NCBI GenBank assembly: GCA_964023275.1
Contig: OZ029921.1
Span: forward strand, 12,777,806-12,841,805
Origin: Norana najaformis
Taxonomy: Eukaryota; Annelida; Clitellata; Crassiclitellata; Hormogastridae
Reading direction: 5' to 3'
Length of the DNA stretch: 64,000 nt
Shown in pieces: positions 12,301-42,200 of this stretch (position 1 is its first letter; every line of letters begins with the position of its first letter). Below the pieces are notes generated by a model, which saw nothing but the letters and a program-made list of their open reading frames with translations, was not told the DNA's origin and did no database searches. The translations under genes were made by a program, and so were the position numbers.

Positions 12301-15153
12301 AGTCATCCAATTAATTGAAGAAAATGTGGAAGAATTAAATTTGATAAGAAGTTTGTAACATGCTGTACAACTGATATTTTTCAGTAACTTAGTTAAATTA
12401 CCAGATGTAAAATAAAATGAAGTGACTATTGGACCGCCAAGTGGCTCATAAATTTATCTGGTTATCGAGATTTTCAGACTAGCGTCACGTGATTCCAGAA
12501 CCTGACTACTTTCATAACTAATGTGGCGACCCTAAGGGAGAGTTTATTTTATGTTGGTCAAAAGCTTTTTTCGCCTTAATGACTTAGAAAATTGAAAGAA
12601 AGTAATTTTAATAATCTTGCAATGTGTGATGCCAAGATGTTGAAAATGCATGAAAAGTGTGTGCCGAAGAAGACTGCACATGCCAAGAATGAGCTGCAAT
12701 ATTACCGTCAATAGTAATGGGGTACACACAATCACACAAACTAATCAATATTACACAAATTCGTCTCCTCTCCTTTGTGGTCTTTATTTCTAAAGATAAC
12801 CAGATAAATTTATAAAGAAGTTTAAGATAGGTGTCGTCCGTAACCCCTCCCTCTCTTTGTCTGCATATGGCACTCTAGTAGTGTATTGAAGCCTAAATTG
12901 GGCTTCCTTAGTGATTTTGCTGGGTTTGTGCTATGGGGTGAGTTATTATGATACTGCAGTGTCCAGCATAGGAGCTCTGCTGAAACATGACATGGTATTG
13001 ACTATCTGTGGTCTGACAGATTTTGGCCTAAGAAAGTTAAAGCTGTAGTTAAATAAGTGCATGAACTAAAGTTTGATGCAGACGTCCTCACTGGGCAAAA
13101 CCCCCTCCCACATGTCTACATTTAGGTGATCCATCCCTCCTTCCTCTGCAGACATCCTTATGGATGACCTCATACTACTTTAAAAATCAAAGTTAATAAT
13201 AGTTCTCATCCTATGCTTAACTTTTGGACTTATGAACAGCCGACTTGCGTTCTGCTGCAACCTACTAGCAGCCAATTTGTATTTCAATTTGAAAAGCTGC
13301 CTGGTGGCCCGCTAGTATTCCTTGTTAGATGGCCATCTGACAGCCCGCAACAGTCAAAGTAAAATTAATGCTAAATTTGGTTATAATTATAAATTTGCCA
13401 GAATTGTTTGCAATTTTTGTAGCATATTTTAAACCAATGTTACAAAATTCAAGAGTGCGTCACAGTTCAGAAATTTCTGTAATATAATTATACATTTGGC
13501 AGAATTGTTTGCAATTTTATATATATTTTAAGCAATATTAAGACTTCAAGAGTGTCTTACAGAGGTGTCAGAAGTTTTTACAGAACGTTTCTGTAAGTTG
13601 TACTTGATGTTCAATCAGTTTTTAAGTAAGTAAGTTTATTGCTCCAAAGAAGAACAGAATAGAACGTTGCAAATAACAAAAAATACACTTGTTTGGATGC
13701 AAAGGTCTACCCAAAAGGGGCCGAGGTCCTGCTAATTTAGGGCAGCCTGTAACACAATAATATAACAATGGCTAATGTCTAATTATTGAACAGCTAATCA
13801 ATTCTTAACTAAAATGAGAACAACATCTGTCCATAAAGAAAGAAATGGCCTATTACTTTGGCATAACAAGAATTCAAATAAATTATACAATGTTCAGTCG
13901 CAAGAAATACTAAAATACTGAATATTCTGCTTCTTAAATAAATTTAAATTAGGTAAAGAACGTAAATTCTTGGGAATTGAGTTCCATATTGATGGGCCTG
14001 CATATTTCAAAGCAAACTGTCTTGTGTTAGTTCTGGTAAATATTTTATAGTAGTTACACTGAGATCTTGTGGAATATGAATGACAATCAGCAACACACAT
14101 AAAATAATTACTGAATACAGTTGGCAATGCATTTTGGTAATATCTAAACATGAACAAGGATATTTTTTACTGACAATGCACAAGTTATAAGTGCTTTTAA
14201 TAATAAATAAATAAATAATTAAATACTGCCACTGGGGTGGAGCTTAAGATATAAGAAAAAATCAGATATTTAGTCCGAGTATAAGACCATTCAGATCCTT
14301 GTATGTGATCAGGCACAGTTTGCAGTAATCTGCTGAGGAACACGCAGCCAGTGTAGGTTGTCACGCAGCATATCAGTAGCATGATTGGATGGTGTCTGGC
14401 CATAGATGAGGCGGGCAACAGAGTTTAGCACTGCTGACAAGTCGGCAGACCTGCCAGCAGGCTAACTGCAGTAGTCAGCCTTGGAGACTATGAAGCTGTT
14501 GACCAAAGTGACAGCGGTTGAGGTAGGAACGAATATACAGATGGACTTAATGTGAAGCATTTGGTAAAAGCAACTTCGAACAAGTTGATTCACGTGGGAC
14601 GACATGGTCACACAGCTGTCAACTTCTGCATTTGAGCAGCAGACAACTAGAACACACATCGGCTGCGGTCCTCACTGAGGAATCAACTGCATGTCCTGCA
14701 TCTTCCAAGAGGTTCGACAAATGTGCCTTCTCTGTTGCCGGACCACTGCATGGAACAGTCCTCCTGACCATGTGATGAATGCCCGATACCTGGTCACATT
14801 CAAGTCACGGTTCAAGATATATCTTTTTAAGATATCTTGTGACTATTGTTGACTTTTAAACTCATGTATAAGCGCCCTTTTCTTCTGCCTCGGCCATGTA
14901 AATAAATGCATCGTTGCTATGGCGCAATATAAATTGTCTTACTATTATTATTATTAAGCTAGCCATTAACTATAAGCTATTTTATAATACTATATGCTGA
15001 CCCGCTTAATATGTATAATGATATCTACAACTTACCACTAAACTTAAACCATCAAGATACATTAACCTATTCATAAGCGATCTAGCTAAACGGACACTTA
15101 TATACTATATACATTTATTACAAGGCAATTGCAAATTTAAATGGAGGATCATT

Positions 15154-15216
<63 letters not shown>

Positions 15217-18200: not shown

Positions 18201-21200
18201 ATCCTGGACTTGAGAATTTTAAGTTGTCATTTTGTTTTTTAATGAATGCTTGCCTAAAGAAGTTGACTGAGGTGATAGAAAGATTGCAGTAATATTTCCA
18301 GGATAGTTGCAAGAAGTTGCTGTTTTCAGATTATTAAAAGAGCACGCCAAAGGTATCTAATGGAGGAGTACAAAAAGAAGCAGCAACCTCTCAGTGAGAC
18401 CTTGAAAGATACAGCTGATGCCTTGGAGGTAAATGTCTCTGTACAGTTATAATGCCAAGAATGCCAACTAAACGTCTCTGTACAGTTATAATGCTGTCAA
18501 ATACTATAAAATCTTGAGTATTATGCATAGATGCATATAATGGGAAGCCAACTTAACATTAAATTTTGGATAGGGGATTTTATAGAAGGGATATATGTTT
18601 AGACTTTGGAGTTCTAGTGATAGCTGATCAAAAACTTTTGAACTCTGAAGCATAAAGGTTGCAAGATGACCTATGTGTCTGCATTTTGTTTATTACTTGG
18701 GCTGTTTGGGTGTTGTTTCTTGGCAAACAAGACTTGTTTTAGTAGTTGTCTCACTGTGACCTTTTGTGACTTGTCCAATTCTGCCTTTGTTAATTCCATG
18801 AAGAAAATGGAGTTTAATGTCACATAGCATAGTTTCTCAATTTTACTTGTAACTGTTTTAGTTTTTGATGAAAAAGCTGTCAAAGGAAGAAGATTCTGAT
18901 AAGCGAGAAATGTATCAGCGGATGTTAACCAAGGTCACCAGTGCCATGGAAACTGCCTCGGCAGTTGTTGTTGGGCATGGCATTGAAGAAGGCACTGCTC
19001 GTCAAGTAACTCTGTCCTCATTTTATTTGTGTATTTGCTGTGGTACATGTGGTATTTACAAGATGCATAGCCATTCTTATAGTCCAGAAAATGTCTTGTG
19101 CATGTGCTTATGTATAAATGTGTGACTCGGGCAGAGAAAATTAACTTTTGTTGCTTACAAAAATGCCAGAAAATACTGTTTTCACTGTGATCATGGTTTT
19201 GTTTTTTGCTCAAATAAATGCATCTGCATCTTGGACTCATTTTAGTACAAACTGTATTACATTGCTTGGTGTATTAAGGTGAAATTCTTCATTTAAAACA
19301 TTGATTTTAATTTTTTAATGGATAAATCCAAAAATTTATATTTTACATAAAATGCCAAAAATGCATAAATTTTTGGACAAATGGTTCTGAAAGTTATAAA
19401 GTTATAGCCTGACTTTCTGAAAGTGTCAGCTGATAGAAAGTGCTTTATAAGGCTTGTAAGTCAATTTGTGATAAGTGGTCCCTTTTCTGTGGCACAGTCA
19501 CACACACACGCACACACACACACCATGAGATATATATACGTATTCAAATAATATTTAAGGTTCTTATTTCATAATTTTAATAGACAAATTTTGTAACATT
19601 TAGATCCTGATTGATTCAGCTTCCGATGTTATTTCTGACTGGCTTGATAAACACAAGGGCTCAGAAGTGACAGACAATGCCATTTTTGCAGACCTTCCCA
19701 AAAAATATGAGGAAAGGTTTCATGAAGATATGGCTGCTCTGAATGTAAGTAAAATTGATGTTCTGTGATTCCAAAGGCCCATCTGTGGCAAGAATCAGAA
19801 AAACTGATAAATGGATTACAGAAGTAATGAGGTGTTTCATAGAGGTTCATGTTTTAGAGAGGTTCTTAAGATTATTTGTAGAAATGCCTTGGTACAATTT
19901 AGAAAAATGTTCAGCACACTATATAAATTATTTAATTATTGCATTGCGAGTTTAAGGCTGTGCATATGACTACTGGTTTGATGGGAATGCAGTGTAATGT
20001 AGTGTAACGCAACTGAACATTTTTATGGCTCCTTTTAAGTATCTTTCGAAGACACTTCTTGTTACCCTAAATTACGTAAGACTTGATCAAGAACAACAAG
20101 TTCATATGTGTAACAATACTGCTGAGGATTTTAATTTGTCTACCTTATTTATGACAATTGTTAGATAGGTACAGAGCATGGATGATTGTTAATTTATTTA
20201 ATTTACCAGCATCGAGACACTAGCATCATAGTATTGTCGCATACCACCGGTACTCCCTTCCGCCAACACCTGGCCGAGTTACAGAAGGAGTCAGGATGGC
20301 CTCCTTAGCGCTTAGCCGAGTCCGTATCTGTAGGGCTCCCGGGGTATATCGGGATAAGACGTAGTCAACCAAGCCAAAAGCGTCCGAAATATAACGTTTA
20401 TTCTCGATCCGACAATCAGATTAAGCACATTAGCAACTTCTTCAAACGAACGACGACAACTGATTGACTACTGACTGACTACTAACTGACTACTAACTGA
20501 CTGACTGACTGACTACTAACAGACTGAACTACGACAAATCCTGTCCCCGCCTTATATAAGGCACTCATTTGCATATTGGGCACTCATTTGCATATTCGAC
20601 ACTCATTTGCATACTGGGAACTCATTTGCTTATTCGGAACTCATTTGCGTATTCGGAACTCATTTGCATATTGGACACTCATTATTTTGCCACAGTATAA
20701 GATTCAGTTTAGGCATGAGGAACAGCCAGTGGAGTGTCTATAGAAGCATGAAAAGCAGAGAGACTGTGCAAAATATTTGAAGTTTGTAGAACCAAATAAG
20801 ACTCACTATTCAGCTGCTTGAGCACACGACACTTCAAGCAATAGCACGGGTGGTAACCATTACGGACTAGTCAGTTAGCTGGAGTCTGTTCAGCTGTCAA
20901 GATGTTTTACAAAATGTAACGTAATAATGCTGTAATAGGTTGAAAAGTGATTGCAGGCAGGCTTTCAGACATATAGAACCTAGCCAATCCTGGGTTGACA
21001 GTTGAAATTGCTGTGTATAAGTTGAGAAATTTATTTCTAAAAATTGATCCTAAAATGAATTCATTTATACAAGAGTGATAGGAAATTTCAAACCCAAGTT
21101 GAACTGATATGCACTATGCATTAGCCTTATATGCCATTAGCATTGAATGCATATTGGTATTTTAGTGCAAAATCTACATTCATTAAAAGTAGAGATAAAA

Positions 21201-24200
21201 TTTTATGACTGTGCTGCGGTGCCAAAATATTGTTGCATTATAATCTGTCTTAATGTGTTTTATAAAATGTACAAACTTAATGACAGTTGTGATGGTGGTA
21301 ACCACACCTTGCAGTCAGGGTGCAAAGAAAGGCTTCTGGTTATTGATGTCAGGAATAAGATCAGACACTGGAAACCACACTGTGACCATTACTTTATGAT
21401 CAACAATGATAAGCACATATCAAGTCCTTTCCTTTTAACTAAACTTTTACCCTTGTTACTAGAGTAGAGTATTCTGAAGCTTTAGATTAATTATATTAAA
21501 GCATACACAAGTATTTTAAGATCAAGAATGAAACTGTCAACAGTGTTTAATGTTGACAACTATAATGCCTATGACACCATTAGCTATGTTCCCACAGCGC
21601 TGCCTTTTTTCTTGACTGTTGTATTCTGTTTTTTTTAGTTTACGTATACCAGCATGTTTCTAGCATCATTCTTTCAATTTTTAATTTTTAAATATCATAT
21701 TTATCTTTTTTCCACAAAGAGGATGGTTTTAATCTTTCTAGCCTCAGCTATTGGCATGTGCTTGAAATCAACCTACGTATGGTTAAATTCAGCATATTCA
21801 GAGTTCCTGGTCCATGCTGCAGATGAGAAATGATGACAGCTGAATGAAGCATTCGCAGCACATGGTTACACAGGCTGAATTGCAGTCCATTGGGCTGATG
21901 ATGATGTTCCTCGTGTTAAGTCCTCCCTTGCTCAGCAGAGGGCTTTTGTTATTGTTGGCCCATCTCTGTAGAATGAACTTCCGCTATCGCTTTGTGCAAG
22001 GGTCACTGTTGTTGATAGAGCTCAGTCAGCTCGTTGTTTAAAGACGTTCTTATTTCCCAGGGGCTCTCATGCTGGAAGCACCTCTGAGTAGTTTGTTCTG
22101 TAAGAAGCGCTATATAAGTTATCAAATACAAAATCAATACGCTGTCCAAACAGCTCTCCGGCCACCAGGGTTGTGCAGGATGGACATTCATCATTAGTTG
22201 GCCTGTTAGTCACAGTTTTTATGATGGTTGGTTGACTCCACTACAAAGACTTAAAGTGTAATCAGACCCAGTTTATTTGGCTCAGTGGCCATGCTCAGAT
22301 TGCTAAGATAGATGTCTTGTCCCTGCACCAGAGGTTTCCAGATATCCTGTTCTCATCCACAGTCCATGATCGTGGAGTTGTCCTGAACCAGGAACTATCT
22401 GTGATTGATCATGTAAACAGTGTCACCCGCTCATGTTTTTACCACATTCGTCAGCTTCGTACCGTCCGCCGCTCGCTCTCCTTCCATGCTGTTACTGCTT
22501 TAATTTGTACCCTTATCTGTACCAGGGTGGACTTTGGTAATGCTATCTTTGCTGACCTTTTTCTAGCTAAAATCTTGAAGCTCCAGTCTTTACTTAATGC
22601 TGCTGCCTGTCTGATTAGAGGTGTCTCTAGTTAGAAGTCATATGACTCCCTTCATATGGGACACTTTACATTGGCTGCCAATTCAGCAGTACTGAGTTTA
22701 AGATCTTAATCCTTATGCATAATTGTCTCATTGGCTCTGCTCTATGGTTTCTTCAGTTCCAGCTGTGGCTCTCTCTGGTCGTTGTCCCGCATATGTGTAC
22801 CTCTAGGGCACAGCACAGAAGCTTTGCCTATGTTTGACCTACCAGCTGGAATAGCCTTTCTTGTGAGGTGCGGCTTAAGCTGCTCAGTTTGCTCCTTCTG
22901 CAGTTTTGCAGAAGTCTGTCTTATTTGACAGTTGTTTCACCGGTCTGGGTTAGGAGCACCTCTGATGAGTTTATTCTTGAAGTGGTGCTTTATAAATGTC
23001 AGATTACAATTACAGTTACTCATTGCTTGCAGTTATTTCACTGAATCTGCAATTTCCCACTTCTGTATAGATCTACCAATTGAAAATTGCGGTCATGCAT
23101 CAGTGATAGATATCCGTATGTTCAAAGTAGACTTAAGAAATAACTAGGGAACAGAGTGCTATTACGAGGTCCATAAAGGCACCATGCAAATGTTCAGTTA
23201 CGTAAGTGACATACATATCAACTTGAACATGATAGTTATCTGAATGTACAAGAATTATCAAGCAAATTTTGCAAATCTATGGCAGCTTATTTGCCAAAAT
23301 GAATGAGACACGGTGCTTCATAAGAAAGAGAAAGGATTCAGAGCCTGAAAGATAAGCTGACAGGCAGCTTTGAACCTGGAAACTCTCTTGGCTGTGTTTG
23401 AACTGGCTGGACAAAATCTGTTGAATTGCTCAGCTTTAATGAATAAAAGAATTCTGTAGAATTTCCTTTTTATTTAGCTACTTTGTCACTATAGATGCAG
23501 AGCATGTATATATTGGTTGATTTGCTTTGATTTTAGGTCATTCCGCCATGTGTCTTGACTCGAGTCAGTGAGTTCATTCCGCAGATAACTGAATTTGTCC
23601 AAAAAATTATTGACCAAGGCTTTGGGTAATGTGACCAAGATATTCCAAACTCTTGTCAGAATTACTTTATTGTAGCAGTTTTTATAAGACTGATTTCTAA
23701 TAGAACTTTGTAGGCTGGCAAGACAAGTGTTTGTTAACATTAGAAGAACAGCACATCTGGAAATGATTGATTATGTGAACTTTTAACTGGAAATTAAAAA
23801 ATTTTAACCAGAAATTTCCATAAGCCAATGGTCCTGGCTTGGGTTCTTAACATATTTTAGGTAGAGTTTTGCCTTTTTCCTGCACATTGTAAGCAGCGCC
23901 ACTGTCATCCAAGGTTGTTTAAACATGCATCTAGGGCGAATAAGCCCATTAATTAGGGAAAGCCGTGCTGTATGATTGCTTGTACTTCTCCATGAATAGA
24001 GCGTAGATGCCAGGGATGGGTCGCCATTATCACAGGCCATATTGATGTCGGACCAGTCAGTATTGTATTGTATTGTATTTGATAACTTATGTAGTCCTTC
24101 TTACAGAACAAACTACTCGGAGGCACTTCAAGCATGAGAGCCCCTGGGAAATAAGAACGTCTTTAAACAACGAGCTGACTGAGCTCTATCACCAACAGTG

Positions 24201-27200
24201 ACTCTTGCACAAAACAATAGCGGAAGTTCATTCCATAGAGACGGGCCAATAACAGCAAAAGCCCTCAGCTGAGCAAATAAGGACTTAACATGAGGAACAA
24301 ATATATCCAGATGATCTAGAGCATGTAAAGGACGGGATGAGATACTACACTGTGTCCGGAAAAATTCCAAGGCTTTACGGTAAATATGAAAATAATTAGT
24401 AAACATTAATCGATTTTTAAAATTCCAAAAACAGTTTAATCCTGAAATATATAATTACCAACAAAATTCTTTGTAATTTATTAACGGCCCCCGTTTAAAA
24501 TTACGTCACAGTGACGTATTTGAATTTTATATTTTGTAAAGAAAGTTGCTAGAAAAATGGCGTTCAGCGAGGAAGACAAAATTGTTATAAAATTTTTACG
24601 CCAAAACAACAATTATAGTGCATATAATATTTCAGGATTAAACTGTTTTTGGAATTTTAAAAATCAATTAATGTTTACTAATTATTTTCACATTTACCGT
24701 AAAGCCTTGGAATTTTTCCGGACACAGTGTAGAGTGTGAAAGCTGAATAAGATCACAGATATTTTGGAGCCTGGCCCACCTGAGCTCTAATTACCAGTGA
24801 CAATAGTTTAAACTGAATACGAGATTGGATAGGGAGCCAATGAAGTTGCTGAATGATGTAATCAGAGATATGAGAGAAACGAGGAAGACGTGATATTAAC
24901 CTGGCTGCAGAATTTAGCACTGATTGAAGGGAAGACAGTCGATACTTAGGCAAACCATTAAGTACAGAGTTGCAGTAATCAATGCGACGGCATATCATGG
25001 CATGAATCATAGTAGTAAAGACAGAGGAAGAAACAGAACGACGAACAACTCTTAAGCGCCTTAATTGGTAGTAACAAGACCGAGTCAAACTAGAGACATG
25101 GCTTGCGAAGGTAAGGTTACAGTCATGTATACAGTAACGCCCAGATTACGAACACTAGATAAAAACATAAAAGAGGGGAAACTTTGGATAAGCAAGAGTA
25201 AGAGTAGTCAAGCTGAGCATAACGGTATTTAGAACCAAACCAGATCAACGGAGTCTTAGCAGGATTAAGACGAAGACCACTGCAGGACATCCAGTGTTGA
25301 ATATCTCGAGTCAGGGCATCAGTCTGACACCTTTTGTTCTGTGTGCAAACAATTTATCTATTCCACATTGAAGAATTATCACTGTGTCATATGCAGGTCC
25401 AATTTCTGTACTTCCTGCTTGAATTCACCACTAACACCAGGTTATCATGATTCACAGTGGTTCTGTCGACATTGCATTTTGTCTGTGTTCCCATTTAATC
25501 ATACAGTGTGAGCCTGTAAAGGATTAAGAGAATGTTACCGGTAGACTAAAGAACTTACTATTTCATCCCTCCGATGATTATGAAGAAAATTGTGAATTGC
25601 TAAATAACCCCGATCTTGACCCTGAAATAATTATTATAACTCGATAATGCTTAGTTCAAGCAGGTATATATGTTTAGCAAAGTTTGTTAAATATCTTACA
25701 ATAGATTTGTCCACAACAGATGTTAATATTACAGCAATCTTTAGCTGCTAACCCTAAATAATTGTCACCTCACTGTGTACTTCTGACCCTGAACTAATCA
25801 AACTGCAGATTTAACAAAAAGGTTTCAGTGAAAATGATGTTCATTGGAAAGCCCTTCTGAATAATGCTTAGTGCCAATATTTTAGAATTCTTGAAATAAT
25901 GCCTAGCAAATGTCATTCTTGGGGCTCCACAGGATAATGCTTGTAACAATAAATCAATTAAATGTTCCAAAATGTTCATTCGCCTTTCACCATCTCTGAG
26001 AAGCCATCAAAGTCCACATCTTCTGTGCCACTTTGAAACAGTTCTGCTCCGGTTGTGGTAAATCTTCATCAGTGTTGTCAGCATCTTCTGTTATTTTTTA
26101 TTTCTGCCCTCTTGAAATTCACAATTTTTATTCTGGATTAATCCCTGTTTGAACACATTGCATGGTCCAATAACAGGCAGGACTATGCAAGGACACTGAG
26201 TCTTGATTTATGGCCACCTAGGAGCTTAACCCTTTGCATGCAAGGTATTTGTCGCCCTTGTTCTGGACCCTGCGAGATTTTTGTGTGGTTTTGGTCCATT
26301 TTGTTTCTTAAGGGTTAGGCTTTTATGCTTCAACTCATCCAAAATTTCCTGGCTCATGTGATGCTGTGCACAACTTCTCACACAAATTCCTTAACTCTGT
26401 TAAGCCTGCTGCACTGGCTTCCTGTAGAATTCTGGATAAAATTTAAACTACCATTTCTGACCTATAAAATACTAACTATGATCACTCCTACCTACCTTCA
26501 GTCACTAGTCTCTCCTTACATCCCTCCTTGCAGTGTATGGGGTTTGAGTACATGCCTCCTAGCTGAGCCATGATGCAGAACTGTCCTGGGTGCGCGTGCA
26601 TTCCACGGTACTGCCCCCAAGGAATAGAACCAAATACCAACATATTTTTGAAGCTTTACCTCTTCCATAAATGTCTGAAGCACACTATTTCTCCCTGAAT
26701 CTGGATATCTAACTGTTTTTTACCTGGCAACTGATAACCGTGCCTCAGATTCGCATTATATGTGATCTTACACATGTCAGAAATCTTCGTAATATTAATA
26801 ATGAAGGGTAAAAATATCCTATCTCAGCAATCATTGAAGATAGAGTTAAAGTGTAAACATGAAATTTGCTAAGAAATGAAATTTGGACAAGTCTGTCTCT
26901 TGTAATAGTTTGTATGTGCTTGTATTTTTTTAGATATGACAATTTAAATGTAATGGTGTGGTGTTGCTGTATATAAAATATTTTAAAGTCCAGTACTATT
27001 GTACTTTTTAATCTTAAGTTTCTTTACAGGATATTTAGACATCCTTGCTGACTCACATGAATTGTATGAAAAATGAGTTACTTTGTATCATGTTGTCCAT
27101 TCTGATTACATGGGCTTCAGCATTAGGATGTGCAATGGCAAGCAGCTCATGAACAAAATAGCCCAATATATTTTTATTGTGTGTTTTTCATTTTGGGGGT

Positions 27201-30200
27201 CATTTTTATGTTGGAATTGTAAATAGAATTTAGGGCTGCAAAGACATTGCTTGGGGCCACAGTTTGTTAAGCTCATTCTAGTCTCTCATTTCTTGTAGCT
27301 GGTCTTTTGTGCAACTTTGCCAGAATGTACCATTTATTTAACATTGTAATGTAAACTTTCATGAAGCATCAGTGTGATGCAAACATGCATTTTTGTAGTC
27401 TCACTACAAGGAAACACTTTGAACAATGCCAGTATGATGAATGAAAATGGGAAAGGCTGAAGTGCTGTAATTGTAATTAGTAACTTCTGTTGTGCCAACG
27501 TCTAATGCACAAGGCATCAACCAGTGGCATGCCAAAACCAGAATCAGGTCAATATCCAGAAGGTCAGTCCACTATGACAGAGAAGTTACTAATTCACCCA
27601 TTACAAATATCAGGAAACAGAGGTGGGCGATGTGACCCGCCGCTGATGGCTCACAGTTGTCTCATCATCTAGCAGTCCCTCTGGGGTGGAAGACAGGGTG
27701 GAAGATGGCAGACGATGCAGCATCCGGATATTCCTCGAACTGATGGGTATGTGTAGGACAGGCATTCATCGCCTGTTGGCCATTAGGTAGTTGAGCCCTT
27801 CCATGGTTGACGGTCAGTGCCACTCCAGACTCTCTTCGCCTTTCCTCCATCAAATCAATGATTTCCCGGCATGGAGGTGGTGTATGTGTGCCTGTAGGTT
27901 GACTGAGGCCTGACTGTCGAACTAGAATTGTGGCGGATCAGCCACAAGGCAAGACTGCTGGAAAGAGGCAGGAGTAGCTATGACGTGCTTTAGGTAGCTG
28001 CTGAGTGCTGCGCGTGTGTGCACGGTAACTGCACGGGATTTTTAAGGAATTAAATTTTATTAAAATTAAGCTTAATCTAATAATAGATTAATAATTAGGT
28101 CGTGGAAAATTCTTAGTGTAATTTTAGTAAAGTAACGAACAAAATTGTTGAAATTTCTAGGCTCTAAAACGTTTGTTTTAAGGAAAATAATCGGTCACAG
28201 TTAGACACCTTTATTTACGTTTTATTGATCGTGCTAGTATATAAGCAAACTGCCGTAAATTAGAAAATGGGGCTTGAATAAGAGGTGTTGCATGCAGCGA
28301 TGCCTATGGTGTGAAGGATGGTAGCGTGCCTTCACATATACGACAGTACAGGAGGAGCGATGCGGGCCTCCTGAAAACAGAGTGAAGGATGGTTGCGAGC
28401 CTTCACGGGAACGAGTCCGAGTGTTTCTCAGTGAAATCATAGCGTATACAAATACACGAACGAGGGTGACGTCCGGAGAAGCCCGTGTTCGATCCGGTCC
28501 CGGTTATGATCAAATATATGGATGGGAAAAGTCCGTGAAAAAGACTAATCTGTGCGCTCCCGGCGGGACGACCGAGACAAACACTGTCTGGTTTCGGGCT
28601 GACGGCGTCGATCCGGTTTGAACGAGGGCCCACTCTACCGTAGATCGCAAGGCGGCCTTAGACGCGACGGTGAACGTTGAGGTTGGACAGAACCCGGGGA
28701 AAGACCCCGTTCGTAAGAAATAAGTACAGGTCTGTGGCAAGTAACGGGTTGGCATCGGGAAGCCTACCCAAGTAGTCGGCGAGTGTCAAGTAAAACAGGC
28801 CTGTGTAAAACAAGCGGGAAAGTTGCGGAAACTACCCCTTTCTTTGGCCGCGTAAGAGAAAAGTCTGATCGGTGCGCTCCCGAGAACGTCGCAGCCGTTA
28901 CGAACCAATCTGTCTGATTTCAGACTGGCTCCGTTGGACCGGCAGGGCTCGGGCCCACCCTGTTGGAAAGTCGCGAGACGGTCGAGTAAGTCATGATAGT
29001 TGGAAAATAGAGGCTGGGCGAAGATCGGGGAAAGATGCGGCGACAGGTCTGTGTGAATTCAAGGGGTAGCATTTGCCGTAAAAGATAACTGGTGCCGTAA
29101 AACTTGTCCGTGCGCTCCTGAGGAAGTCGCAACCAAAGCAAACCAATCTGTCTGATTTCTGACTGGCTCCGTTGGTCTAGCAGGGCTCGGGCCCACCCTG
29201 TTGGGAAGTCGCGAGACGGTCTGAATAGTCATGATAGTTGGAAGATTACTGGTTGTGCGAAACTCGGGGAAAGATGCGGCCGCGGTTTTCCCTGTAGAAA
29301 TTCAGACGGCAGGAAGAGATACGGGGAAGACGCCGCGGATCATAACACAGACCAAGTAAAGTCCCGGTACGTAAGAGACCGGATCATGTAACGCAGACCA
29401 AGAAAAGTCCCATTAAGCAAGAGACCGGAAACTAACGCAGACCAAGAAAATACCCGGTACATCATAGTCCGGGTCGGTTCCCCGATAACACCGGAGTCGA
29501 AACGGGAAGATACCGACTCCTCTATATTGCTTGTCGCCACACGCTGATCAGAGGACTGACTGAAGTGCGGGGAAGGGCCGCCTCGTGCGTAGGTCGGTAC
29601 GAAGGTCCGTGTGTTTTACAGAAGGTTAGAGAGAGGACCTTCTCTTGAATGTTCCATAGGGGTTTCCTATCCCCTGAAGCACTGTTGGTTGATAGTTGCC
29701 AACAGAGACCTGATACGGAAGTTTACTACGGAAGTCCACTGAGATGGAGCGAGAGACAGATAGTGATAATGGGAAGATGCGTCGCCCATATCTATGTGCC
29801 TGGGGCGGAAAGACACGGAGGATAGTCGTAAGACTTCCCTCTTCCCGGAACCGAGAAAGCGACTGGTGTCTCAGAATATTGGCGGTAGCGGGCGAGTTAC
29901 AAGATGTAAAATGGTGGTTACGAGAAAGTCCTCACACAAAAAGGGAACAACTATTGCCGGTAAAGGAACGAACCCTGTTCTGAGTAAAGGCCATCCTCAG
30001 GACGTCGCCCATCCGGCGACCGCGGAAGAGGCAGAGTTGGATCCCGAGACCAAGTGTTACAGCGTTGATTTCTTAAGGAAGCGGTCCATCCTGAAACTTC
30101 CTTAGAGAGAACGAACGATACGGGCAGAGGCCTTATGGAGAGGCCATTTTACAGTGAAAATATAAGGGGCAGTGAGGCGGGTGGCTCTGAGCGTAGAACT

Positions 30201-33200
30201 GGTCTGGAGTACCCCACCCCGTGGACAGTTAGCCCGACCGAGAACGCCACAGAATCCTCTCCCCCCTCCGTAGTTGGACCATTCCAGACACAGAAGATCA
30301 CGATAACATGAAACAAAACCATCCAATGCGCAGTAAATCCATGTTGGAAACGAAAAATAATTCTGATACGCAGACTCAGCAACAGTAAAACTCTGAACTG
30401 CCAGAATTATGCGAAAATTTCACATTTGGGTAGTTTAATCCATCAAAAATAACGCAAAGAAAAGCCAACGACCAATAAGGGCATGCACAATATCGCAAAC
30501 AGTGTGCGCAAACAACTTGCCCAGGATTATTACACAGAGTCGAACTCACACCCGCAGATCATTGACCAAACGCGTTAATGATAGACCATTGTGCCGTATG
30601 TGTGGAGATATTTAACTTGAAAATCAACAAAGTTTTCCATTTTGCGTTCATATTATCAGCTGTGATGACAAATAAGGACAAAGTTTTGCATATGATTTTT
30701 TTGGAAATTCTAAGTCGCACAAAAATTAATTTTGAAGGATTTCATGCATATACGAGTAGCAGGATTCAAACATATGTTTATTTTAAACATATGTAGAGCC
30801 TAAATGAAATTATAATGTTTGCTTTTTAATATGCATGCCACAGAGGCATTTTAACTTGTCATATCTGATACAAGCATGTACAAACAATTAAATGACACAG
30901 GTTTGTTCAAAAAATCATTTGTAAAATTTTTTATTATTACACTTTGCCTCTGTTTTTAGTGGTTAATGAAATATTTTATTTTTACCCTTACAAAGTCAAA
31001 TGGGATCAAAACTCCAACAATTTATGGTAAGATATATGTATTGGGGCAAAGGGTTAATAATTTTGCTATTTTCTGACTTTTCTGACAGATATGTTTCGAA
31101 TGGATCTGTGTACTTTGACACAATCAAATTCAGTCAGTCACCAGGGCATTATTATGCTAAGCTTGTACCAGAGGCATTTGGTGATGTAAAGGCTTTGGAA
31201 GAAGGCGAAGGTAAGTGTCTGAATGTATTGATATTCTGCAGCATTACTTGTTTCAGTTTTCAGTATTTGGGAGTGTGTTAAGGCCTTATAAAATGCTTGG
31301 AGTCTTGAGGAATCTGCAGTGGAGAAAAATCAAGTCTTCAGTCTATGTGACACTGTCAGGAGCTGACTGGTTAAGTCCTTGCTTTGCAAATGACAGATGT
31401 GCAGGTTGAGCCTCCACTGAGGCAATAATCATTTTGTAGGAACCTTGAGTAAACCTGGTGCTGCTGACAGAAAATTGTTTTTTTTTCTGCTCAAAAAGTT
31501 TGCATTGGTATGATTTCATTTTGCATAGAGACCTGCACAGCTTCAAAATTGTATTTCAAATAAAGATTGGTGATTAGGTTTGATTTATGGAAAACTAATT
31601 CTGGTCGCTTTTCTGCACATTTTATATGACTGCAAATTTGGCTGTGATCCTCAGAAAATGCAAATGCATGTACTGTTAGCTAGACAGCTCTTGGATCATA
31701 AACATTTACCATGAGCAGAATCAGATAGTGATTCCATGAACCAGTGCTGAGTAAATAAGTAAGTGCATGTTGGGTGTAAGGAAGGTAAGCAATGTAGCAC
31801 ATCAAAACAACTGTGCAAATTTCCATTCTAAATTGTCCTCCTAGAACTGTTCAGTCCAGTCTGTTGAGAAAGAGGAGTCGATCCAGGAGGCTTCAGCTGT
31901 CTCCAAGGTGACCATCTGCTGTCAATCCAGCACACTCGAGCTTCACAAAAACGGTTCTTTTCAGAGCCACCAAATATTTGAAAAGGAAACAAATGTCAAG
32001 GTGTTTGCCTGTCTGTGTGCCTGGCGTGTTGTAATCTTTTGTTTTTGCCCTGTTGTTGTGCATGTTGCACTGGTTTTGATTTTGTGGTTGTATTGCTGTG
32101 CATGTGTTTGGGAGGTGGTGGGGTGAGTAGGCAACTTTGAGAACCCCAAAATTTTTCTATCAAAAACTGGACACAAGATTGAAAGAGGAGATAAAATGCT
32201 AAAGAATGATGTTGACCTCAAGCCAATATGTCAAAAATGATCAAGATTTAATAAGCTAAAAAATTTCTTACTTTTTAGCCGTTTTCTTATAACTCCTTCG
32301 ATTTTTCTGACTAGTCTACAGACTAAAAATATTGTATCTTCTTCCTTCTTGAAAATATTTTCAAAATTTCTTTTGGGTTTGTATGGCTTTGATTTCTGCA
32401 CAGTTTCTGTCCTGACACCACATAATGTTGTCACTGAAAATTTTTTTCTATAGGGGCTTGAACATGAAACAAGTTAAAAATTGAGGAGGGGTACAGTTTG
32501 GGGTAACTTTGGGTACCCCAAAATTTTTGTATCAAAAACTAGACTGATGGATGGGAAGAGGGGATAAAATGCTGAAGAACGATGGTAACCTCATGTCTGT
32601 AGGTCAAGAATTATTATAATATATATATATAATTAATATGGCGTTTCCCAGTAAAATCGCTCGTCATCAGGGCCTAGGCGGAAAAAATTCTCTCGTCGGT
32701 TAAGGGTTAAGATAATCTAGACAAAGATCCAAACAAATCTGTCTTCTTTTATGTTTATGAATCTATTTCACGAACAAATACTGGAAATTCCTGTTCTTCT
32801 CCTGAAACTATAGGCACTTTCAGTTTTTTTATTTAAGTGAAAACACTTTGTGACAAAGTTTTTTAAATTTTAAGATAATGACAATAGCTATGTTATGACT
32901 TTAATACTGAATAAGGCAGTGAAAAAAATTTAAAATCGGATAATAAATGACCCCAAAAATAAAAAATCCAAATGCTCGTATCTGCCAATTTTGCATTTTA
33001 ATGATTATCCCACAACCTGGTGACTTGAAAGCCATACAACTTTCTGGTTTCTTATGACTTTAGCTCTGCCTCTCTTGGAGTTACTTGTGGAAGGAATTTA
33101 GTTTCAATTGGAAAACACAGGGATTCTAGTTATTCAGATGTAGATGGGGATGTAATAAAGCCAGCTTCAAGTCTGTTGCTCTATGGTTGATTTCCAAGAG

Positions 33201-36200
33201 GTAATACCTGACTTGTAATTACACATGCAAAGCTATAACATATAAACCCATAATGTATAGCAGGTGAGCTGTACCTGCATAAGACTTTCTATTCATCAAT
33301 AAGAAATAAATAAAGATCACTGAAAGATGGCAAGGCTAGCTCTTGAATAAAAAATCAAGAAGACAAGCTCTACTGGATAATTCTTCCAAGGTCCTTTGCA
33401 GCCTCTAAATGTTCTTCAGTTTACACCAGATTGCACCTGATTTACTAATTTATATAGTGGATTTATTTGGCACCTTCCAGTATTCTAAAGCTGAAAATTC
33501 ATTTTGACCATATACACATGGACCACCCTATAATGATCATGGTCAGTACATGATCATTTTTCAAATGATGTCTTGCAATAATAATAATACTTGCAGACTG
33601 CAGAGATGTTACGTTTGTAATCAAAACCATTATCAGAAATCGTATTTTTAATAAGTTCCCTATTATGTTCGCATATAATAGGTGCAGCTATATATTCAAT
33701 CAGTTAAGTTACATATTCAGTTAGTTAATTAACAAAAATTCTTTATAAATAATGAAGATTTGCAGCTCCATGTCATGTTTGCTTCAATATCCTGCTGAAT
33801 GATTTTTTATCTAACATAATTGTACGTTGTACAACACTGTTCTCGTGCTTTCTGTGAATAAGGTGATCTGAGTGTGTCCGAAGAAAGGCTGAGCGAGAAG
33901 AAGAATTCAGCAGATTTTGCTTTGTGGAAGTCATCAAAGCCTGGGGAACCTTTGTGGGACTCACCCTGGGGAAAGGTTATTACTGTTATTTGTGTATAAA
34001 GTTGAAATTTTCTTGGGGATAAAAGAGTTGCTGCAGCGACAAATGAAGTATGTGGATCTAACCTATCTTTTTCCTCTGTAGCTCTCAGGAATGTGACTGT
34101 ACAACTGCTAATCTCAAATGTGTTGCAAAATTCAAGTTATCATGACACAGCATTTTTTAAATGTGTCACTGGTAAAAGGAGTAAAAATGTGTGGTTAATA
34201 CTGGGGAAAATTGAGGTAAAAAATAGTGCTTACAGTGTGCAGAACCTTGAATGAGTATGCTGATGTGAAATGGTGGATGCTTTGTCTTATCTGATTGAAG
34301 TCTGGACAGTATCTGGCAGAGGTGAGGAAAGAGCAGTGCTTACAGTTTGTGAAGCCATGAGGGAGCATGCTAATATGGAATGGAGGATCCTTCGTTATTT
34401 CAGATGGCTTGTCAGTCACAGCTACTTCTGTTCTGCTCAGATGAGGGCTTGCTTGGACTGAAGCCAAGCAAACCCTCATCAAAATATGACACCCTAAACT
34501 TACTTTACTGTGTTTGAAAACATTTGTATAATTTCTGTGCAGGGTCGACCTGGGTGGCACATAGAATGTTCTGTGATGGCTAGTAGCATTCTTGGAGAAT
34601 CACTGGACATTCATACCGGAGGAGTTGATCTTAAGTTTCCACATCATGATAATGAACTGGCACAGGCAGAGGTTCGTCCTCAGATCATCTTTATGATGGT
34701 GTCATTTACTGTGTTTGTTTACATGGGCAGTGTGTTAAGAATGAATACTCAATTCAGTCAGCCACTTAGTGACCATCATGGTGAATGACTGGTCTTGCAC
34801 TTGGCGATGTCTGCCTTTTTAACCTTTTTTTGCCTGTTCTGTGAACTGATAGTGAAATTACATTCCATCGCAGGTAGCATTTTAACTTATCTACATGAAA
34901 GTGAAAGCTGTTGTTTATTTTTGTCAGGCCTGTTTTGATAATGACCACTGGGTTCGCTACTTTCTGCACTCTGGTCACTTGACGATCTCTGGCTGCAAGA
35001 TGTCGAAATCTCTGAAGAACTTCATAACCATCAAGGAGGCACTGAGCAAGCACACGGCATGCCAACTCCGACTGATGTTCTTATTGCATTCATGGAAGGA
35101 CACCTTAGACTATAGTGATGATACAATGAAGGCAGCCATCAGCTATGAAAAGACTGTTGATGTTAGTAGTTTATTTGTAGTTTATTAGGCTGTAGTTGCT
35201 GGTCCTTTTCTTATGTTAAGAACAGCCTTTCACTGCTCTTATTCTGTTTGAAGCTGTAATCTAATCTGGAGACTTATAAGTGTACTCTTTTCATAATGGC
35301 ATCAGCTGATGGTTTTGTCAAAGGCATTAGGTAAACATCATTCTTTAGCATTTTATATCCTCTTCCCATCCTTCCATCCAGTTCTGTAAAAGAAAGTTTT
35401 GGGATGTCCAAAGTTATCCCATACTGTACCCCCAAAATGACATATTTTTATGTTCAAGGCAGCCAACAAAATATTTTCAGTGACAGCAATTGTTATGTGA
35501 GCATAAAAATGGGCAGAAAATGCCACCAGGCAGAACCAAAAAGAGATTTTTAAAATATGTTTATGAATGAAGAGAATACACATTTTTTAGTATTTAGACC
35601 ATAGTCATAATACTTCAAGGAAGTTAGAAGAAAGAGCCTAAAAGTAAGAGTTTAACTTGTGATATCTGTTAGATTTTACATATACATGTAGTGTAAGCAT
35701 CATTCTTTACCATTTTGTCTCCTCTTACAATATATAAGTCCAGTTTGTAAACAAAACATTTTTGGTTACCCAAAGTTGCCCCAAACAGTACCCCAAAAAA
35801 TCCAAAACTTGCTACACAGTTTTAGAAAAAAAATATATTGTACAAGCACAAAAATGTAGAGAAATTATTACCAGCCAAAAAAATATTAAAGTATTTTTAT
35901 AAATGAGAAAGATATCACTTATTATTTAGACTGCAGCTGTAAAACAAGCAAAAAACAGAAAATTGTGAATTCCAAGTTTTCAGTTCTCTTGTAGATGAAG
36001 ATAATTCCACCTTTCGTCCTCTGTCATTTGGTTTATTTATTTATGTAAGAAATGGGCCAATTTGAAGTTCAGTGTAGCTGCCAACAGATGATCATCTAGA
36101 CAGCTGTAGTTTGCCATATCAACAGCAGAAACAGAGATTAGAAATTTTGGAAGATTTCCTCTTCTGTCACTGAGTTCATTTATTTTGTAAGAAACAGTCA

Positions 36201-39200
36201 GTTCTGTAGACTGAAGAAGCTTCCAGGTGATGGCGCTTTTTGGATTGACTGTGGATGATCATCTTGGATAAGGCTAGACCTTGCCAGATCAGATCGACAG
36301 AAAAAGACTACCAGAGATTATTACTTACTTACTCAGCCCTGCTTTCAGAAACCATGATCTTATTTTGCCTGTGCTAGATACAGAAGCTTCCACCTTTGCA
36401 CAAAGGTATGTTGCATGCTTCAGATTCACACTGTGTCATCTTGGGACAGCCCTTGGCAGTATTTAATCTTTTTCTTTGAACACTGGGTGCAGATATGACA
36501 ATGCAAGCTTCACCAAGCTTTGAATTCTGTCATTGCCTGCTTGCAAACAACACATTAAAGGTTGTTGTCTAAAAGCAAAGTGAAATAGTCTGAACTGAAG
36601 TATCTTGAGTTGGTCCACCACAGATGCCAGTAAATGGAACAATGAGGCTCACAAGGAAATTCTTATAACTCTTTTGTCTACTCTGCCTCACAGCTGTTGT
36701 CAGCTTCTGCTGTTTCTGATTCTGACCCACCATCACTTTAGGCTAGCACACAGCGGATGGTATTGTTGTCTAACTCTGCACCAACGTCTGACTTACCATT
36801 CACCTCATTCACCCACCACTGGACTCCCATGATTCAACTGACATGTGTTCTTCATCAGAACGATTCTCATTTAACTGTCCATTTACAGCTACATGCTGTT
36901 CATACAGCTACATTATGTTCGTTTTGATTAGTTTTTATATTTTGAGGTGTTTTTCAGAGGATCCCATGATGTAATCTAGCTTCAGAGTATACAAAATGGC
37001 CTAAATGATGCAATGCTGTATAATTACAACGACCATGATTCAGCAGGAGGCTATGATATGACTAGACCTGCCTAGTACCATTAGAAACCTTGCTGTCACC
37101 TACCAATAGTACCATTCAGTACTGTGCAGTCATTAATGGGTTAATGTGCCCTCACATAAAACATGCAGGGGAGGTGTACATTATGTAAGAATGCATATAA
37201 CACATATAGTAATAGTTGTTTTATTCAGCTGTGATTCACGTTGTGATCAAATGATGTGATTTCAGTTTCATTATGCACAGTTGAGTAATTGTAATGGTTT
37301 TGTTTTTAATTTCTTCTCCTTTTAGGCATTTTTCTGGCGTGTCAAGAACCTGCTGCGAAGTGCTGACACAAAGTTGTCCAATAAATTTTCCCAGTGGCTT
37401 GAGAAGGAAAGGGTGTTGAATCAGAGGTTGGTATCGACTTGGCATCTTACAAAATGTCTACAAATCTGGATTAAATCTTTTTAGGTATTCAGTTCATGGC
37501 AAACTTGCAATCCATGCTTAATGTATTGTGATTAACTGTCACATGCTGTTGGTGATATAAGGGTCACAATAGAAACGAAGAAGTGTAAATGTATATGTGC
37601 TATGCGGCAATGCCAAACAGGACACCCAATCTCTTTTGACAGTTGAATGCTGTCGCCTTGAAGAGCTGAGTTTTGAAGGTGTTGCCATTTACAGTTCAGA
37701 GGTTGAGGGTGAAAGATTTTGCTAATGCAGCAGTGATGACGCAGTGTGCAGCATGTTGACCAATGAGTGCTGTTGAAAGAACTGCAGGAGCCAGCAGTGG
37801 AAGTAACTGGGCTGGTCTGCTATCTAAATTCGTTCCTGCTCCTGCAGAATCCAAAGCTGGAAACCAGGTGGTAGACTCAACTGGCTCTTTGCAAAACTTT
37901 GATATGTCTACATTTTGATAAATTATATCTTTAGAACTGTGAGACCAAGTTAGATTAAATTTTTATCAGCTATACAGTTTCTTTTGTAGATAAAAAGTAT
38001 TGTTATTGTTTATCCTATAATTTCAACTGTATTATTTGTCAAAGGTGCCTTTCAGTATATTTTACTTCTAAATCAGACAATATTCAGTAATCAGTGTCTC
38101 CATATGTGTGTCTAGCACACTGCATTCATTTTAATCTGTATACTGTCCTTGTGACTGGCAATTAGTAGGTCAAGTTTGACTATATTATAGGCTGCCAAAG
38201 TTGACGAAGTATGACAAGGGGTCATGGAGAAAACATTGCTAACATCTGAAAACTGTTACAATTTTATTGCATTTTATGATAGATCATGGTTTAGTTGATA
38301 AGTATTAAAAAATCTTGATGGCCTTTTTGTATTAAGCAGTTTACAGTGCATCAGGTATGAGTGTTTTGTGGTCTTCTGGGTGAAACATGCATATACCGCA
38401 GTTTGTAGCTTGCATAGATGATAAGAGATGATAGGCTGAGTTGGCCCAGATAGTCTGATAGAAATGGTGACCTGTTCAATTGCTCGCAGTGGTCAGAGGT
38501 GCATAGCTTGACTGTGCTTGCTAGCACTGTTTTCACAGCACCCAACCTCTTTACTCAGAAGACTGGCTTGGTTGGTGGCCTCATTGGTGTTAGAATATTG
38601 GTGTTTTGGTGGAGGAGTTTGTTTATTATTAATTCATCTTTGGCTTTGTGTTTGTGTTACAGATTTAAGGAATGTCGGAAGCAAGTTCACGAGTGCCTGT
38701 GTGGTAGGCTTAAAGTCTCTTGTCCTTTGTAATTCGAGTTTATGAGTGTGAATGTTCGTTCCACTCAAGTCTTTCCTGAAATTCCATCTGTTTGGGCTTT
38801 CTGCTTTATTAATAATTCCATTGTCACCATCTACTGTGTTACTGTTCACTGTTATGCTGGGTAAAACTTGTTAAATATACAAGCTGTTTAATCTTTCTAC
38901 CCAGGATATCTTTGCAGGGCAGGCATTCATCGATGGCCAGCCAAATGGATGTAGAATCAAAATTAGAAAATGACTGCTGAAGATTAAATTTGTGAGATTA
39001 AATTATTTTTTATGCTTTCTGAAAGACAAGCTGGTAAAATAAATTAGCCCTAATGTGATTGTATTGTATTGTATTGTATTTGATAACTTATATAGCGCTT
39101 CTTACAGAACAAACTACTCAGAGGCGCTTCCAGCATGAGAGCCCCTGGGAAATAAGAACGTCTTTAAACAATGAGCTGACTGAGCTCTATCACCAACAGT

Positions 39201-42200
39201 GACCCTTGCACGAAACAATAGCGGAAGTTCATTCCATAGAGAAGGGCAAACAACAGCAAAAGCCCTCAACTAAGCAAGGGAGGACTTAATATGAGGAACA
39301 AATAGATCCAGACAATCTAGAGAACGTAAAGGACGGGATGAGGTACTAGAGTGTGGAGGCCAAATAAGATCACAAATATATTTTGGAGCCTGGCCCATGC
39401 GAGCTCTAATTACCAGTGACAATAGTTTAAACTGAATACGAGATTGGATAGGGAGCCAATGAAGTTGCTGAATGATGTAATCAGAGATATGAGAGAAACG
39501 AGGAAGACGTGATATTAACCTGGCTGCAGAATTTAGCACTGATTGAAGGGAAGACAGTCGATACTTAGGCAAACCATTAAGTACAGAGTTGCAGTAATCA
39601 ATGCAACAGCATATCATGGCATGAATCATAGTAGTAAAGACAGAGGAAGAAACAGAACGACGAACAACTCTTAAGTGCCTTAACTGGTTGTAACAAGACC
39701 TAGTCAAACTAGAGACATGGTTTGCGAAGGTAAGGTTACAGTCAAGTATAATGCCAAGATTACGAACACTAGACGAAAACATAAAAGAGGGGAAGCTTCG
39801 GATAAGCAAAATTAGTCAAGCTGAGCAAGACGGTATTTAGAACCAAACCAGATCAACTGAGTCTTAGCTGGTTAAGGTGAAGATGATTGCAGGAAATCCA
39901 ATGTTGAATGCCATGAGTCAGGGCATCAACCTTACCAACAAGAGCAAGCTGCTTAGACGGAGGTCCCTGAACAAAAGCCTGGACATCATCAGTGTACAAA
40001 TGACCAACAGCCAAGTGTTTTGCAAAAAGGGAAGGGATATCAGCAGTATACAAAATATATAAAAGAGGACCAAGGACGTGATATTCTGCACATGTCTACA
40101 GTCATATTGGCTGTTGATTTGTCTACTGTGTTCATTTCACAAAACAGTTGATCTTACACAGAAGTTGCTCAACAATTCTTCTGTTTGGACTTCTACTGAG
40201 ATCAAGTCTGTATTTTGGAGATTTTTTGTTTTTCTGAAGAATTTCTCATGTATTTTTGGTGTTTTGCGAGTGACCGTTTTGTGGTTGTCAGTTAGTCCAA
40301 CCGACACCTCTAAAAGAGGGTCAGGTTGCCACTCAGACAGTGTCAAGTTTCAGCCGTAATTATGCCATCTGCAACTGGTAATCTCAGATTTGGTGAGAAA
40401 TTTGACAAGACTTGGCGAGATTGATGAGATTTGGCAAGAAAGGGTGATGAGTCACAGACACCTTCCGAAACCTCATTTTGTTTGTAAATATATTCACAAA
40501 TTTGTATAGCGTTAATTCAAGAGAAACTAATCAGAAGTGCTTTCTTCTTCTTGTTCTTCCTTCTGGCAGGAATTATCCCTCCTAGGGGAGGGGTTGGCCA
40601 CAGAAGTGCTTTCTGTGCTCACCTAAATAATGTCGAAGTTCCTTAAGAAGAAAAACTTCATCAATAAGCAAAATAATGCTCCAATACCTAAAAGTCATAG
40701 TGACAGGCTCCCACACATAAACTGCAACCAACAGATTTTCATCCAGACTAATAGTTGACACCATCAGATTTTCACAGCCCTGTGGCATTAAGGATAAAGA
40801 ATGACAACAGGTGATGTGGTCTGCCACCAAAAGCACGGTTTCCTCATTGTCCAGCAATTCCTTCTAAGTGGAAACTGACGCAGCACCCGGGTATCTTTCT
40901 ACGCAGATATCTTTGCAGGGCAGGCCAGCCAAATGGATGTAGAACCAGAATTCGAAAATGACTGCTAAAGATTAAATTTATGAGACCAAATCATTTTTTA
41001 TGCTTTCTGCATTAAAGATCTGGTTTTTTTGTGTGGCATTAGTATGAGATTTAATTTATTGGTTCTACTTTGCAATAACAGCTTGCCCTAGGAAACTAAA
41101 TAAAGATACTATATACTGGTAGAATCCACTTCAAACTATTAAGTAAAATTAGTCTGTTACTGGTGTGTGATTATAGGGAAAACTTGTATACTTTTGGTCT
41201 AAGTATGTAGCCAATCATTTTATGATCTGTGCGTATCTGAGGTATATGTGTATGTCCAGGCTGTACTAAACATTTTTACATGTTTAGCTAATTTCCATGG
41301 GGTATATAAGTGTGCAGTAGGTATGTGTGAAAATACAGTACTTACCATTCACAATTATATAACATAGGACAAGACAGGTAATTGCTCTTGTTCTCTTGAA
41401 CCTAGCTGCTGCTTTTGATACCATCAGTCGCAATTTACTTCTTCACCGCGTTAAACACTGGTTCAGCCTTTCTGGTCTCGCTTTCAGTTGGTTCTCATAT
41501 GGGCATTCTCATACTTCATCATTTTGTATCAATCAACTGACTGGTACCCACTGTCTTGAACTGTGATGTTCCACAAGGTTCTGTACTGGGCCTGCTGTTG
41601 TTTGCTCTACATATCACTTCTATCAGATCATTACTTACTGTTAGCTCTCGAGACCACCATTTCTGTCCTGACTACTCTGATTCCTTTTATTTGACAGTTT
41701 TGTGTCCTTCTCTTTGGCACTGGTCAGTGACTCTGCAAATCTGATTGGCTTACATCTGTTCAGTTTATTAGATTGCTTGTTGATTGTAACATGCACCTAG
41801 GTGTGCATCAGTTTGGGTGTAGTATTTGACTCAACCATGCCATTTTCTGACCATTGGACCACATGCAGATCGTTTCAATTTCACTTGCAGGATATTTGTA
41901 GAATCAAATTTCAGGCGCAGATTGCATGCTACTAATGAATATATGCTTTGCGTGGGAAAATATAAGTAATTAAATTAGATTACTATGTCATAATTCAAAG
42001 ACAATCCTGTCAATAACTGTACAGCCGTCAGGAAAACTTCATCAGGCTAAAAGCAGTCTGGACTTGATGGTTGTCACAGTGGAGGCACAAATGCTGTTGG
42101 AATCCATTACATGTAGCTGCTGCTATGTTAAGTTGCATAACATACATAATGTGCTTTAGATTCTGTCGATACAAAAGGAACTCTTGATGCGATCAGAGAA

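Follow-up and report, generated by a model that had tools for sequence, protein, structure and literature searches.

A CpG-rich, hairpin-rich block in Norana najaformis lies almost certainly within a solo long terminal repeat of a young Ty3/Gypsy retrotransposon

The 5' end of the genomic RNA of the yeast retrotransposon Ty3 is structured, and a palindrome there is reported to drive its dimerisation in vitro (PMC11381356). The leaders of plant pararetroviruses are described as serving translation (by ribosome shunting), splicing, packaging and reverse transcription (PMC5902531). Here we compare with these systems a block of DNA from the annelid Norana najaformis, found in a stretch of 64,000 nucleotides (GenBank assembly GCA_964023275.1, contig OZ029921.1, positions 12,777,806 to 12,841,805 of the forward strand) that we call the window and whose numbering we use throughout. 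A preliminary description of the window, made from the letters of the sequence, had singled out 28268..30330 as a CpG-rich block dense in stem-loops, and had suggested an unknown structured non-coding RNA, a viroid-like or retrozyme-type unit, the leader of a retroelement or an inserted untranslated region of an RNA virus. We found that the block belongs, almost certainly, to a complete solo long terminal repeat (LTR), which occupies 27929..30251 (2,323 bp, + strand, as are all parts of the element discussed below) and derives from a Ty3/Gypsy retrotransposon that is young and present in many copies. As a relic of a mobile element, such a solo LTR is nothing out of the ordinary.

We placed the borders of the LTR by aligning it with its other copies in this genome. 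When the window's own assembly (608 Mb, 17 contigs) was searched with 28268..30330, we recovered the window itself and, at 88-93% identity, 39 further long copies (best 40 scored of 1,879 candidates). All 39 other copies stop at query position 1967-1989, where position 1984 corresponds to window position 30251, and the last 79 bases of the query are therefore host flank. On the other side, a comparison of flanks showed that most examined copies align from 27929, so that 28268 was rejected as the start of the repeat for most copies. The genome-wide search that had been recommended thus uncovered a multi-copy repeat with sharp ends at 27929 and 30251; the block as first delimited falls within this repeat and makes up its downstream 85%, although it had missed the first 339 bp and had taken in 79 bp of host DNA. 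The repeat begins with TGTGGCG (27929..27935) and ends with CGCCACA (30245..30251), a 7-bp inverted repeat of the TG...CA type expected of LTRs. It is flanked by two identical copies of GAAT, at 27925..27928 and at 30252..30255, where host DNA starts. Because this target-site duplication stands on both sides with nothing internal between, the window copy is read as a solo LTR, and no counter-evidence to its identity as an LTR was found.

The same LTR is abundant in the genome and occurs both singly and in pairs. A 20-mer from its 3' end was found at 379 places at up to two mismatches (196 + 183), compared with two places for the reversed pattern. Among the first 100 of these 379 places, all of them exact matches on contigs C1-C6, there are 28 pairs of same-strand neighbours within 13 kb, of which 27 fall at two main spacings: 19 at 5.6-6.7 kb and 8 at 10.2-10.3 kb, the short outnumbering the long, with the remaining pair at 1.4 kb. 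Three of the 19 short-spacing pairs come from one tandem array. On contig C5 (~25263866-25282913), four LTR 3' ends follow one another at exactly 6,349-bp spacing, which is a head-to-tail array of short-class LTR-internal units. Unpaired places number 48 of the first 100, a count in which a partner carrying a mismatch would be missed. Both LTR ends lie within the alignment in 33 of 63 fetched copies, the window copy included; eight of these complete copies belong to a pair, and the other 25 are unpaired. An exact 4-bp target duplication flanks 22 of the 25 unpaired complete LTRs (again including the window) and is lacking from three. Since identical flanks surround two of the 22 (L049 and L050), these probably go back to a single insertion that was duplicated. 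Matching 4-bp flanks were also seen in all four pairs whose outer flanks are both visible.

The paired copies reveal the kind of element to which the LTR belongs. In all five pairs examined, TGGTACCAGAAGTGGGG stands directly after the 5' LTR as a primer-binding site (PBS) and AAGGTGGGGAGAG directly before the 3' LTR as a polypurine tract (PPT), an arrangement of direct repeats around an interior bounded by PBS and PPT that is characteristic of LTRs. The initial TGG of the PBS is the complement of the added CCA, and the rest of TGGTACCAGAAGTGGGG is complementary to the 3' end of a tRNA-Leu gene (anticodon TAA), the only place in the genome that fits the longer pattern at up to one mismatch; the shorter 13-base tRNA pattern fits many PBS sites of the element and, at the place examined, an unrelated tandem repeat that holds no tRNA (L101). 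When the parts of one copy of the long class were searched separately, matches were obtained to PNMA/Retrotrans_gag, RVT_1 (2e-36), RT_RNaseH, Integrase_H2C2, rve and Integrase_p58_C, with a zinc knuckle and an aspartyl protease (RVP_2) both just below their cut-offs. The order protease, reverse transcriptase (RT), RNase H, integrase (PR-RT-RNaseH-IN) in this copy is that of Ty3/Gypsy elements. Compared with solved structures, the RT part lies closer to Ty3 (8.3e-72) than to pararetroviruses (an enzymatic polyprotein, 9.7e-44) or retroviruses (a retroviral-type RT, 4.4e-31), and no copia-type RT was seen among the names in these best 60 of 205 matches. On the strength of these sequence comparisons we assign the family to the Ty3/Gypsy retrotransposons. 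Behind pol there is a frame of 94 amino acids whose sole Pfam match falls far below the cut-off; this bears on the question of an env gene, for which no wider search was made.

The two spacings correspond to a long class, which carries gag-pol in the one copy examined, and a short class, with both ends of the internal region in common. Short-class copies (L009-L013) were compared with L024-L026, L009 in detail; in L009 a different sequence of about 1.1 kb, in which a 330-bp 3' segment recurs, takes the place of most of gag-pol. None of 20 short-class frames reached the Pfam cut-off, the best being weak matches to PNMA and DUF1759. A genome search with the RT piece gave 30 matches at 98-100% identity among the best 150 of 933 candidates, and 20 of them are parts of open frames 2,324-2,415 codons long. 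In addition, all eight LTR pairs compared (two further fetched pairs were left out) are 99.9-100% identical over the block. Judged from these near-identical LTR pairs and intact relatives, the family appears young and recently active, in keeping with the recent arrival that had been proposed for the block.

The composition of the LTR fits this youth. The sharp switch in composition that had first drawn attention to the block is real: the observed/expected ratio of CpG is 1.06 in 28268..30251 and 1.29 in 27929..28267, compared with about 0.4 around them (0.27 in 26000..27928, 0.42 in 30252..33000, 0.43 in 1..27928 and 0.38 in 30252..64000), and G+C is 0.48-0.51 in the two kilobase windows of the block versus 0.29-0.46 in all others. 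The ratio of private transitions at CpG sites to those at other C/G sites is only about 1.6. Youth fits as a sufficient explanation of the CpG content, and protection from methylation is a further possible cause.

Within the LTR, the block takes the place of R-U5. The first 339 bp are A+T-rich, and composition and conservation mark 27929..28264 as U3, the promoter part of the LTR, with a probable end that is placed by the TATA box and by the starts of three truncated copies. The TATA box, TATATAAG at 28238..28245, is there in 30 of 39 non-redundant aligned copies, and some of the nine copies without it lack that whole stretch. The CpG-rich, hairpin-rich part extends from about 30 bp past the TATA box to the end of the LTR, and in the five pairs examined the LTR 3' end abuts the PBS. 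Because the block starts at this distance from the TATA box and reaches the LTR end beside the PBS, we read 28265..30251 as R-U5. From the same positions we infer a start site and a transcribed leader, about 2 kb long in a full-length copy, which would be transcribed from the U3 promoter and would end at the tRNA-Leu PBS, ahead of gag-pol. In substance, the suggestion that the block is the leader of a retroelement has therefore held up. ATG triplets are not clearly depleted in the block (22, compared with 27.0 +/- 3.8 in shuffled sequences; 25 of 200 shuffles were as low). This copy carries candidate polyadenylation signals AATAAG (28719) and AGTAAA (28789), together spanning 28719..28794, which would serve poly(A) addition; since AATAAA stands at 28719 in 16 of 39 copies and at 28789 in 19 of 39, R may end near 28810, with the remainder being U5.

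Three independent copies that lack U3 (L006, L044 and L064, the last with a near-identical duplicate, L066) start at 28264..28272 and run to the LTR 3' end, where they stop without a PBS. Their starts, 26-34 bp past the position of the TATA box, support the proposed start of R, in a small and partly selected sample. A further copy (L003) starts at 28219. Target duplications were not found by the 4-bp test for L003 or for the U3-less copies L006, L044 and L064/L066. These U3-less copies are possibly R-U5 inserted alone, for example as strong-stop complementary DNA, or else truncated copies; in either case the block does occur with borders of its own.

Taken together, a full-length element would have inserted at this site, making the 4-bp target duplication, and recombination between its two LTRs would then have removed the internal part, leaving a single LTR of 2,323 bp. 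An apparently mysterious structured block thereby becomes an identifiable retroelement remnant, and a CpG-rich, hairpin-rich, non-coding intron block can simply be the R-U5 of a young LTR. The lack of a recognisable protein was borne out: of the stop-to-stop frames of at least 100 amino acids, three lie inside the block (101-111 amino acids) and one of 105 amino acids crosses its end, and none of the four has a Pfam match at E <= 0.1. The two classes of tandem modules that had been described are likewise present. One is a module of about 240 bp in two copies that are 84-85% alike (28859..29280; matched parts 28869..29008 and 29107..29246, 85%), with an earlier copy traceable as short degenerate matches at 28539..28562 and 28681..28704, and the other is a unit of about 45 bp in 2.8 tandem copies (29336..29460).

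What, then, of the hairpins? They stand in a cluster of three with 11-nt loops (28310..28406, with hairpins at 28310..28336, 28349..28373 and 28382..28406), forming a unit that is duplicated in some copies; in a pair at 29452..29520 (29452..29474 and 29493..29520); in a second cluster of three at 29620..29705 (29620..29643, ~29658..29675 and 29682..29705), whose stems vary little and whose loops vary more; and in a further pair at 30004..30104 (30004..30020 and 30074..30104). Nine of the ten inverted repeats have loops of 10-15 nt, and their sequences are mostly unlike one another. We counted perfect Watson-Crick stems with loops of 3-20 nt in the window copy and in 100 dinucleotide shuffles. 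Stems of at least 7 bp are in excess (7, compared with 1.7 +/- 1.4 in shuffles; 0 of 100 shuffles reach this number), which upholds part of the claim of an unusual stem density, whereas stems of at least 6 bp, on which that claim had been built, are not unusual (10 versus 5.9 +/- 2.6, reached by 10 of 100). Stems of at least 8 bp number 2, compared with 0.5 in shuffles (9 of 100 reach). Each of seven other copies has 6-7 stems of at least 7 bp, reached in each case by 0 of 50 shuffles, although the copies are related and these tests are not independent.

The stems also vary less than their surroundings. The mean minor-allele frequency is 0.022 in stem columns versus 0.045 in the block, and only 1 of 1,983 rotated stem masks gives a value as low; columns with common variants make up 0.043 of the stems versus 0.112 of the block (13 of 1,983 rotations as low). 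Variation in the stem is below that of its own loop in 7 of 10 hairpins and below that of the 12-nt flanks in 8 of 10. The LTR thus has one mildly unusual trait, a long leader with short inverted repeats that are less variable than their surroundings. These repeats are genuine and under some protection, and they may act either in RNA or in DNA.

The reading that we prefer, though only tentatively, is that the stem-loops are cis-acting elements of the leader RNA. It is drawn from their position and from analogy with Ty3 (PMC11381356) and with pararetrovirus leaders (PMC5902531). The stem-loops may serve as contacts in dimerisation or packaging, or may let ribosomes bypass upstream AUGs, of which the window copy would supply 22. 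In its fuller form, which we consider rather doubtful, R-U5 would hold diverse RNA hairpins maintained by selection as cis signals, common to the autonomous and the short class, and would sometimes be inserted alone. Should the stems turn out to work at the RNA level, the use of long leaders by Gypsy elements could be studied conveniently in this family, which offers numerous near-identical copies as well as a short class bearing the same LTR.

Several results weigh against a role in RNA. Folding exceeds that of dinucleotide-shuffled controls in the first kilobase (z = -3.5, 0 of 20 shuffles as low) but not in the second (z = -0.6, 5 of 20 as low), and across 31 sliding windows of 120 nt the single copy gives a mean z of -0.32 on the + strand and -0.09 on the - strand, so that most of the block folds at the level of shuffles. 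Folding of the alignment does not favour either strand: across 31 windows the mean z is -0.89 on one and -0.92 on the other, with 6 windows below z -2 on each. The stretch 29609..29728 reaches -5.2 on the + strand and -4.6 on the - strand. No compensatory changes were found in 19 pairs of three hairpins among 38 distinct sequences, with a power limited by copies that are about 93% alike, and all 500 shuffles reach every measure of the covariation test. Stem changes that would keep pairing through G-U number 18 distinct ones on the + strand versus 17 on the - strand, against a background of 359 versus 319. Moreover, some pairs are often broken: the inner pair 28352-28370 in 14 of 50 copies, the inner pairs 29269-29290 and 29271-29288 of one stem in 21 of 51 and 22 of 52, and the outermost pair 28310-28336 of a third stem in 18 of 49. 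The broken inner pairs belong to two of ten stems, and the breaks occur in groups of copies. Because compensatory changes and a strand-specific G-U signal are lacking and the folding excess is patchy, the conserved RNA structure that had been proposed is not established, low variation of the stems notwithstanding. A sister family (RT 74% identical) was of no use for covariation, as its LTR of about 1.5 kb in L093 has no detectable similarity to the one described here; the stem excess of that LTR is largely AT-repeat and says little. A second related stretch, L094 (RT 75%), in which the LTR was not located, shows no similarity to the LTR either.

On another view, the surplus of hairpins has no meaning of its own and arose through duplication and base composition as the LTR changed rapidly, while the low variation of stems reflects locally conserved stretches in which pairing plays no part. 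We consider this quite possible, though short of probable: most windows fold like shuffles, covariation is lacking and stems of at least 6 bp show no clear excess. It has to contend with the excess of stems of at least 7 bp in 8 of 8 related copies tested and with stems that are less variable than most of their own loops and flanks. Alternatively, and with somewhat less conviction on our part, the inverted repeats may act as DNA, as symmetric boxes bound by transcription or silencing factors. Conservation of the stems is indeed symmetric between the strands and without G-U bias, and Sirevirus LTRs, in the examples described, have conserved palindromic boxes, mostly with a CGG-CCG core, within CpG islands (PMC2829016). 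However, the Sirevirus boxes are presented there as copies of one motif per element, shown upstream of the TATA box, whereas the repeats here lie downstream of it, mostly differ in sequence and, in nine of ten cases, enclose 10-15 nt loops.

An independent structured non-coding RNA, whether viroid-like or of the retrozyme type, is highly improbable. The local hairpin cluster at 28289..28408, which has the best single-copy folding score (z -3.8), and the three independent R-U5-only copies, which give the block borders of its own, would agree with it. However, the block has no Rfam match at gathering level, only two chance-level ones up to E = 10, and neither a hammerhead nor any other self-cleaving ribozyme was among them; retrozymes are described as non-autonomous retroelements with hammerhead ribozymes (PMC4918200). 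In addition, two-ended LTRs of a family mobilised with gag-pol account for 33 of the 63 fetched copies, including that of the window, and the R-U5-only copies start at the expected transcription start and end on the PBS side, as truncated or strong-stop copies would. An inserted untranslated region of an RNA virus, in favour of which only the lacking reading frame speaks, can be dismissed as next to impossible in view of the complete LTR with its 4-bp target duplication, the hundreds of copies, the PBS, the PPT and the Ty3/Gypsy pol.

In the window, the solo LTR lies in sense orientation in an intron of an apparent cysteinyl-tRNA synthetase gene on the + strand, since the frames on either side of it resemble the catalytic domain of class I (C) tRNA synthetases: 10629..10946 (+) covers profile positions 27-62 and 34886..35185 (+) covers positions 231-299. 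A second gene may be present on the - strand, where a frame at 62785..63102 matches the Fukutin N-terminal domain. Pieces of a piggyBac-type transposase (DDE_Tnp_1_7 and its zinc finger) were found in two frames at 46389..47756 (+). A likeness to the C-terminal part of non-LTR-retrotransposon RT was noted by eye at 3325..4128 (-), 22236..22634 (+), 24753..25145 (-), 39270..39815 (-), 45525..46214 (-) and 55876..56379 (+); a Pfam search of three such frames (3328..4128, 39273..39815 and 45528..46214) gave nothing at E <= 0.01. Short tandem arrays lie at 61568..61676 (46-bp units), 20459..20683 (11/19-bp) and 44587..44664 (34-bp).

Compared with known systems, this family has in common with plant pararetroviruses (PMC5902531) a long and potentially structured leader with upstream AUGs ahead of the coding region and a tRNA PBS. 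The leader of cauliflower mosaic virus is given there as 600 nt with one large stem-loop, whereas many short local hairpins are predicted here. With the Sirevirus LTRs treated in PMC2829016 it has in common conserved inverted-repeat boxes in a CpG-rich LTR; those elements are Ty1/copia elements of plants with a repeated box upstream of the TATA box, unlike the diverse hairpins downstream of it in N. najaformis. For Ty3 RNA, six palindromes are reported within the first 400 nt (PMC11381356), compared with an inferred leader of about 2 kb in this family. The closest relatives overall are the Ty3/Gypsy elements (Metaviridae), with which it has in common the order gag-PR-RT-RNaseH-IN, a tRNA PBS, a PPT, TG...CA ends, 4-bp target duplications and solo LTRs, and from which it differs by a 2.3-kb LTR that lies mostly downstream of the TATA box and, in some copies, by one uninterrupted frame that reaches up to 2,415 codons.

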